Below, piece after piece: positions 32,990-34,593 of a DNA stretch of 64,000 bases. Numbering within the stretch: position 1 is the first letter of the stretch; every line of letters starts with the position of its first letter. The stretch lies in NCBI GenBank assembly GCA_012103325.1, contig WLWY01000006.1, forward strand, positions 310,001 through 374,000. Direction: 5' to 3'. Under the pieces are notes generated by a model. The model saw only the letters and a list, made by a program, of their open reading frames with translations, made no database searches and was not told where the DNA came from. This DNA is from Alphaproteobacteria bacterium. GTDB taxonomy: Bacteria; Pseudomonadota; Alphaproteobacteria; UBA8366; GCA-2717185. Both the position numbers and the translations under genes were made by a program.

Positions 32990-33625
32990 TTATGTTGCGG
33001 GCGTTTCTTTTGGTTCGGTCTCAAGCATCGCCGGGCGTTCAGAGAACGCGTCATACCAGCGCGAAAGACGCCCGTGTCCTGGCCTAAAATCTCCAAGCCA
33101 ATCGCGCCAATCCTGGTATCCACAGGCAATACCAACCGTGATTTGTGCGAGATTCAGGGGGCCATCTAATTCTTCGGCGCAGCTCTCAATATGATCGAAG
33201 CATCGCGCAATGCGATCGCGCTGCTTATCGAGAAAACCTTCGGATCGCATGGCTTCGGGCCGCAGCATCTCCGCCCGTATCGCGATCTGCGCTTCCAACA
33301 AACCATCGGCTACCGCATATAGCGACCACATATTCCAACGTGCCGCGCCGTCGGGAATAACGCTTTCTCCCGCCGCGATCTCGTTCAGGTGCTGGCAGAT
33401 CAGCGTCGAATCGCCGAGCGCTGCCCCGCCGTCCGTAATCAGTGTTGGAATTCGCGCAACGGGATTCGCCTCGGCGAGCCCTTCCGTAAATTGGACGGTC
33501 GCGTAGCCCCAATCCAAGGGCCAAACCGTCGGTGCGATCTCGATGCGGTCCCATAATCCAAGTTCCCGCGCGGTCACCACGACCTTGCGCGTAAAGGGCG
33601 ATGCCGGCGTCCAATAGAGCTTCAT
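32990..33625 (-). CDS. Glutathione S-transferase family protein (1)
   Basis: A 211-residue thioredoxin-fold plus helical-domain GST. The N-terminus (MKLYWTPASPFTRKVVV) has the usual active-site Ser, and a cis-Pro loop (VARIPTLITDGG) follows. No Shine-Dalgarno is visible before the ATG at 33625; the sequence upstream is the left inverted repeat of the element at 33631. It lies downstream of a second GST gene on the same strand, separated by that element. Confidence 0.86.
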   Translation of the reverse strand: MKLYWTPASPFTRKVVVTARELGLWDRIEIAPTVWPLDWGYATVQFTEGLAEANPVARIPTLITDGGAALGDSTLICQHLNEIAAGESVIPDGAARWNMWSLYAVADGLLEAQIAIRAEMLRPEAMRSEGFLDKQRDRIARCFDHIESCAEELDGPLNLAQITVGIACGYQDWRDWLGDFRPGHGRLSRWYDAFSERPAMLETEPKETPAT

Positions 33626-33630
33626 GTGTT

Positions 33631-33893
33631 ATACCAAGGAGCGTTGATAATGACCCATAGAGATCGCGCATGCGGTCCGCCGGTTAGGAGGGGCGGCGCA
33701 GTCGATGCGGGGCATTGTCAAGCCGTTCCGACGCCCTCCGACGGGCCGCATACGCGACCCGAAGGGCGGGTTATCCAGGCTTTCGGACAGCGTCGCGCCC
33801 GGCTTCCTATGCCCCGCATCGCCGCACCGCGCGCTCCTTGCCGAAAACCTGGATAACCCGTCTCTATGTGTCATTATCAGCGCTCCTTGGTAT
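33631..33893. mobile_element. 263-bp element with 33-bp terminal inverted repeats (MITE-like)
   Basis: The ends (33631-33663 and 33861-33893) are inverted copies with 31 of 33 bases identical; both start ATACCAAGGAGCG. Inside lie two further inverted pairs: GATGCGGGGCAT (33704) with ATGCCCCGCATC (33809), and a 20-base pair at 33767-33786 and 33841-33860. Each terminal repeat contains AAGGAGCG followed by TGATAATG, that is a ribosome site and ATG leading into the element. The right repeat supplies the stop codon of the GST gene at 33877. No transposase is encoded. A target duplication could not be defined. Confidence 0.7.
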
Positions 33894-34593
33894 TACCCTG
33901 CACCTGCGGCGTCTGCGCCGTCTGATTGAACAGATTCTTGCGTTCCTCGTCGCTCGGCGGTCCAGAACGGCGGAGTTCCTTGCCGACATCGACCCCGCGC
34001 TGCGCGGCAGGCCGTTCCTTGATCACGTTCCGCCAACGCGACACATTGGGAAAATCATCAAGGGACTGACCGAGCGGCTTCGCGATCAGGACCCAAGGCC
34101 AGCTGATCATGTCGACAATGGAATAGTCACCCAGAATAAACTCCTGGTCTTCCAGTCGCCGTTCGAGCACACCCAGACAGCGATTGTACTCGTTACCGTA
34201 ACGGTTCTTGCCATATTCGACGCCGCCATCGGCGTAGTTGACGAAGTGACTCAGTTGCCCCGCCATTGGCCCTTGATTGCCGACCTGCCAGAACAGCCAC
34301 TCCAGGACTTCCTTGCGGGCACGCCAATCATTCGGGATAAATTTGCCCGTCCGTTCTGCCAGATAATAAAGGATCGCCCCGGACTCGAAGACAGCGACCG
34401 GTTCCTCTCCCTCCACATCGTTGTCGACGATCGCTGGCATGCGGTTGTTCGGACTGATTTCGAGGAACTTGGGCTTGAACTGATCGCCCTTGCCGATGTT
34501 CACGGGAATCAGATTATAAGGGAGCTCGCACTCCTCCAGCATGATGGACACTTTCCAGCCGTTCGGGGTCGGCCAGTAGTAGAAATCGAGCAT
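33877..34593 (-). CDS. Glutathione S-transferase, YfcG/YghU-like (2)
   Basis: The start is ATG 34593 behind GGAGGAACG, which gives 238 residues. The N-terminus (YYWPTPNGWKVSIMLEE) and PNNRMPAIVD match the YfcG/YghU-type GSTs, which act as disulfide-bond reductases with glutathione. The last five residues, NTKER, and the stop codon are encoded in the right terminal repeat of the element at 33631, so the original C-terminus may have been changed. A divergent class II aldolase gene starts 135 bases away. Confidence 0.87.
   Translation of the reverse strand: MLDFYYWPTPNGWKVSIMLEECELPYNLIPVNIGKGDQFKPKFLEISPNNRMPAIVDNDVEGEEPVAVFESGAILYYLAERTGKFIPNDWRARKEVLEWLFWQVGNQGPMAGQLSHFVNYADGGVEYGKNRYGNEYNRCLGVLERRLEDQEFILGDYSIVDMISWPWVLIAKPLGQSLDDFPNVSRWRNVIKERPAAQRGVDVGKELRRSGPPSDEERKNLFNQTAQTPQVQGNTKER

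Follow-up and report, generated by a model that had tools for sequence, protein, structure and literature searches.

A mobile MITE-like element with a two-hairpin core at a GST gene junction, and a possible passage for translation across it

Transposons normally break operons through polarity. Two GST genes in the window, the stretch of 64,000 nucleotides analysed here, are separated by an inverted-repeat element with ribosome-binding motifs facing inward at both ends. The locus thus raises the question whether a mobile element has entered an operon and, as the first-pass annotation of this DNA proposed, keeps the operon readable through it.

The features of the element are collected in the Table. 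The description made from the letters alone holds for its coordinates and anatomy: 33-bp terminal repeats enclose 197 bp, and complementarity reaches 92% over 36 bp (33628-33663 / 33861-33896). The nested inverted pairs were recovered as well, one as hairpin arm A and a second at 33767-33798 / 33829-33860, and so were the 81-codon minus-strand ORF, the identity of both flanking genes as GST (Pfam) and an AAGGAG 8 nt ahead of an inward ATG on either strand. The stop codon of the upstream GST lies inside the right terminal repeat as described, and the ATG of the ORF follows it after 2 nt, not 3. The TAA of this ORF lies 3 nt ahead of the downstream GST start. Folding of the element yielded -171 kcal/mol (z = -12.2; 0/200 shuffles as good). 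With one target duplication included, the insert measures 264 bp, or 88 codons.

Table. Features of the element and its neighbours, in window coordinates.
Feature	Position	Strand	Remarks
MITE-like element, 263 bp	33631..33893	.	ends set by aligning genome copies; three empty sites in congeners
Left target duplication TTA, 3 bp	33629..33631	.	shares base 1 of the element
Right target duplication TTA	33893..33895	.	
Left terminal inverted repeat	33631..33663	+	AAGGAG 33636-33641; inward ATG 33650-33652
Right terminal inverted repeat	33861..33893	-	AAGGAG 33888-33883; TGA 33879-33877; inward ATG 33874-33872
Hairpin arm A, 94 nt	33664..33757	+	motif CGG-NN-AGGAG ... GCGATGC ... CGACGC; unit found class-wide by arm model R1
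Hairpin arm B, 94 nt	33767..33860	-	arm A motif inverted; R1 match at G000:C6:343767-343860, minus strand
81-codon ORF, MTHRD...	33629..33874	-	from right terminal repeat to target duplication (stop TAA); no Pfam match
68-codon ORF	33650..33856	+	opens in left terminal repeat
Upstream GST gene	33877..34593	-	Pfam GST_N/GST_C; final codons and stop (GNTKER*) from right end of element
Downstream GST gene	32990..33625	-	Pfam GST_N_3

The element is mobile and MITE-like, as had been suggested. It is not single-copy: the genome from which the window comes (the own genome; 6.33 Mb, 24 contigs) carries 28 near-full copies at 84-94% identity, besides deletion derivatives, and all aligned copies terminate ATACC...GGTAT. 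The flanks read TNA-TACC...GGTA-TNA, and in 19 of the 28 copies the 3-bp duplication is the same at either end (binomial p ~2e-6 against a 25% chance). When copies from other genomes are pooled with these, an identical TNA duplication is seen in 37/63, and the target leans to CTNAG. The exact terminal repeat is present in at least 103 stretches of alphaproteobacterial genomes, mostly metagenome-assembled, among them Rhodospirillaceae and Kiloniellales; the cultured Pelagibius sp. Alg239-R121 also has a copy. At the GST-GST junction itself, three congeneric genomes (G002, G003, G004) have empty sites; the inverted repeats are missing from them, and the distance between the matched blocks is exactly 264 bp less than that in the window. 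Once the element and one duplication are removed, the window aligns with these sites essentially ungapped over 276 bp, at 77-80% identity. In all three congeners the stop of the upstream GST overlaps the start of the downstream GST (ATGA), and the same ATGA is found in the joined model of the window. Thus, the insertion split a translation-coupled GST pair a few bases ahead of the overlap, and the upstream product, which ends ...GNT* in the joined model, now ends ...GNTKER* within the terminal repeat. In keeping with a MITE, the element is short, lacks a transposase gene between its terminal inverted repeats and duplicates its target, and both dispersed copies and empty sites exist.

Each element is built of a terminal stem and two inverted 94-nt arms. 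Among 52 arms from about 30 loci the mean column identity is only 62%; even so, 34 pairs are kept in 88% of cells. Two-sided changes are seen in 29 of the 34 arm pairs, and covariation is 0.640 compared with 0.219 in shuffled alignments and at most 0.20 when the alignment is slid. Two parts of the arm are conserved: an internal loop, in which AGG.G faces ACG, and GATG...CATC at the apex. Across families, departures to G-T and A-C number 77 vs 10 in the inner arm stems and 15 vs 20 in the outer stem, and the inner-stem G-T excess fits selection on the inner arm as a folded single strand. A one-arm covariance model (R1) gave matches in 39 of 289 alphaproteobacterial genomes. The matches fall into about 30 families and are often +/- pairs about 10 nt apart. 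In a phylum-wide control search with the arm model, 10 of 299 genomes had matches; nine of these are Alphaproteobacteria, with one weak match outside. The terminal repeats vary by lineage, and nearly all those examined end TACC with TNA or CTAG/YTAR. No Rfam family matches the element above its gathering score. The two-arm family, in about one-seventh of the sampled alphaproteobacterial genomes and outside the Rfam models, would fill a gap in annotation, and its spread poses the question of what the arm motif binds.

Two observations were made alongside. Genome G464, of another class, has two weak arm-model matches (E 1e-8 and 1e-6), by transfer or by chance. At six loci (L107, L121, L126, L162, L163, L181) the elements are longer and have an additional nested hairpin in one arm, CCCCCG/GGGGGC-rich around a short AT stretch.

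One explanation of the element is that the inverted arms are its cargo, a structured nucleic acid serving in RNA processing, stability or protein binding, or as a DNA fold for transposition; their paired inversion would give orientation independence, and the reading frames would be incidental. The two-sided changes and the covariation, the invariant internal loop (AGGAG/CGACGC), the G-T excess confined to the inner stems and the conservation of the core class-wide under different ends all argue for it. It is weakened by the lack of a match to a known RNA family and by the minus strand of the window copy, which folds preferentially as a single rod and not as two arms. We regard this explanation as a serious possibility that falls a little short of even. 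It is compatible with a translational role of the element, and both can hold.

The translational role was addressed through the reading frames. In the terminal-repeat family of the window the through frame reads TNA TAC CAA GGA GCG NTG ATA RTG ... TNA. It is open in 29/43 elements on one strand and in 30/43 on the other, with 0-11 in the other phases and about 15% in shuffles. In 25 equal-length elements of 71% mean identity, the TNA-to-TNA phase contains 9 stops on one strand and 7 on the other, vs 51-97 in other phases; permutation within columns expects 15.1 and 11.7 (~1/300 and 9/300). The own copies have no new stops in the 81-codon frame where 3.1 are expected, a result that is weak alone (Poisson p ~0.05) and concerns one of six frames. 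The internal ORFs were rejected as coding, since codon positions are equally variable, the nonsynonymous share is at or above neutral and the peptide is not conserved. A usable start is missing in about 15 of 56 own-genome ends, and 6/28 own copies have frame-shifting length changes. Sister families with other terminal repeats carry no AAGGAG. The claim that the element has its own ribosome sites is thus upheld for the terminal-repeat family of the window and fails for the sister families and for the ends without a start codon. In several families of class 1 and class 2 the frame is closed or the length is not a multiple of three; a family in genome G037 with different ends, also without AAGGAG, has an open frame in the copies of 263 bp. 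Among class-1 elements, indels show no clear preference for lengths divisible by three, and frame upkeep after insertion therefore looks weak.

The placement of the copies was examined as well. The target duplication is an exact stop codon in 8/28 own copies, 11/33 copies in other genomes and 9/16 copies in G037, against a share of 11% for positions of this kind among the window's neutral TNA sites (p 0.01, 6e-4 and 1.5e-5, respectively); stop codons are hit 2.5-5 times over expectation. Among tight co-directional junctions whose element is open on a single strand, nine have that frame in the direction of the genes and two have it opposed (9/11, p 0.03); for elements of intact length it follows the genes in 9/9 informative cases (p 0.002), because both opposed cases carry indels. 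These counts come from small samples of related copies with automatic gene calls, the context of the window copy, which the automatic calls missed, having been assigned by hand. The G037 copies lie mostly between convergent genes.

The reading that we prefer is translational transparency of the window's terminal-repeat family, which, judged from the sequences, stands just on the probable side. As a non-autonomous DNA transposon, the element would enter at TNA and duplicate it, moved in trans by a putative DDE transposase recognising the TACC ends. Because TNA includes TAA and TGA and the duplication regenerates the stop, insertion would often occur on a stop codon with the gene left intact. 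The terminal repeat may then act as a cassette for termination and reinitiation: whichever of the three frames they arrive in, ribosomes could meet a stop close to AAGGAG-N8-RTG, a TAA or TGA duplication supplying the stop in its own frame, and the frame from RTG would stay open and close at the second TNA, right before the downstream start. With the stop, ribosome site and start so arranged and the frame open behind them, we propose that translation of a coupled operon can continue across the insert. That ribosomes use the passage, and that it is selected for, is what we infer. Of the claim that the element keeps the operon readable, then, the stop-free frame, the insertion on stop codons and the orientation in tight junctions speak in favour, and the unconserved peptide and the loss of some starts and frames against; with sister families having no ribosome site, a translational function is plausible but unproven. 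Since a minority of copies have lost the start or frame and some families have no ribosome site, the passage is not needed for mobility. If true, an element selected to pass ribosomes would show clearly how a selfish element can cut its cost at the level of translation.

In a wider form, held more tentatively, a class-wide mobile superfamily may keep the two-hairpin core and swap its terminal repeats, and hence its transposases. One branch would have evolved translational transparency: it lands on stops and regenerates them, and its stop/ribosome-site/start ends open a passage of 88 codons that keeps the frame, on one strand or on both.

Alternatively, the element could be an ordinary MITE with no translational role, tolerated on stop codons through its TNA duplication, its open frames a by-product of GC richness and of a core that is stop-free in one phase. 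The absence of selection on the peptide, the sizeable share of copies without start or frame, the existence of families with no open frame and the stop-codon insertions found in convergent contexts too are consistent with this. Against it stand the deficit of TNA-phase stops relative to a permutation that kept column composition and the sense orientation in all nine informative tight junctions. This alternative is possible but somewhat doubtful.

The matched stem changes could also be products of hairpin-templated repair (quasi-palindrome correction) instead of structural selection. In the own copies, departures from pairing are equally often G-T and A-C (25 vs 21), and 34 switches from one Watson-Crick pair to another are seen vs 3 G-T intermediates, a pattern that fits such correction. 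Selection on the RNA strand was accordingly rejected as a conclusion from the own copies alone, G-T and A-C departures being equal there in helices supported on both strands. Repair does not explain the invariant internal-loop motif, the constant 94-nt arms or the inner-stem G-T bias, and as the whole account it is unlikely. A REP/BIME-like element mobilised by a RAYT (Y1) transposase, as the two adjoining inverted hairpin units might suggest, is highly improbable, since the element has 3-bp target duplications and long terminal repeats, neither of which is known from REP elements.

The 3-bp TNA duplication presumably points to the IS1031 group of the IS5 family, whose derivatives are expected to have it, and the ends relevant to finding an IS5-family mobiliser are TACCAAGG or TACCAAATC. 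No IS5-family transposase gene with the ends of the element was found in the genomes examined. In the own genome (assembly of 24 contigs, 92.5% complete) there was no autonomous element with matching ends and no convergent TNATACCAAGG pair at IS distance, and a search for paired ends in the own genome, G037 and G039 returned MITEs and remnants only. Plasmids, phages and viral contigs gave no match to the element. The two multicopy PF01609 ISs of the own genome were rejected as carriers because their ends differ; DUF4096 (PF13340) transposases were rejected as mobiliser, being absent from the own genome and, in six relatives, without TACCAA ends. G037 contains an 849-bp DUF4096 transposase element (L286, contig C22) with CTAG...CTAG ends of 22 bp, in the end style of class-2 two-arm elements. 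A class-2 end (L324, TAGAGCATGAT) may resemble Bru-RS-type repeats, a lead only.

IS5-family MITEs of the IS1031 type share terminal repeats, the 3-bp TNA duplication, non-autonomy and multiple copies with the element; unlike them, the element has no matching IS found, and its core is kept class-wide while the terminal repeats change. Enterobacteria, Neisseria and Rickettsia are known to harbour small hairpin repeats that contain reading frames (PMC2759123, PMC2229807, PMC2267715). ERIC/RU-1, YPAL/RU-2 and RU-3 are likewise short hairpin mobile repeats with ORFs, fused to genes or co-transcribed (PMC2759123, PMC2229807), but measure 103-168 bp against 263 bp and are set apart by description; ERIC/RU ORFs are discussed as protein fusions, and that of the element as part of a stop-start cassette whose frame runs through the insert at operon junctions. 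The Rickettsia palindromic elements are alphaproteobacterial palindromic repeats with an open frame (PMC2229807, PMC2267715); compared by description, they lie inside proteins, whereas copies of the element lie at the ends of genes and often coincide with the stop codon. Caulobacter CIR (CcrM-associated) is a conserved alphaproteobacterial intergenic repeat with arms, but it is about 110 bp long, carries GANTC and has stops in all frames (PMC2229807). Membership in CIR was rejected, as GANTC is depleted in the element (34 in 74 elements vs 77 expected). The palindromic intergenic Bru-RS of Brucella, also alphaproteobacterial, is shorter (103-105 bp; PMC2267715), and, compared by description, two 94-nt arms are not described for it. 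Correia/NEMIS is a MITE with inverted repeats, TA ends, open frames in some species and effects on adjacent mRNA (PMC2229807); it belongs to Neisseria, measures 107-155 bp and is not known to have the two-arm core. In the literature searched, with subscription journals thinly covered, analogues only were met: neither the two-arm core and its class-wide spread under changing ends nor a stop-start passage with an operon orientation bias was described.

Several minor observations concern remnants and other repeats. Recurrent 33-38 bp remnants, ATACCAAGGAGCGNTGATAGTGACCCTTGGTAT, flanked by TNA, occur at L061, L064, L067, L074 and L076 in the own genome and at L149 and L151 in others; either an identical near-whole-element deletion arose in several genomes or it gets copied there. 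At L118:7623-7669 an element has shrunk to a near-perfect palindrome of 47 bp that consists of its two terminal repeats, and about 90 bp ahead of the window start lies a further end from this element family, truncated (L065; G000:C6:309887-309910). The own genome also has two IS families that look recently active (L193-L204 and L205-L222): the first with 12 copies of 1274 bp and ends CCCACTGTTGTCCGG, mostly inside another repeat (ttgggcttga), and the second with 29 copies, a 329-aa transposase and ends near GGAGACCTCTGCGAA, inserted in CCTCCTTAATCCTCCCC repeats.
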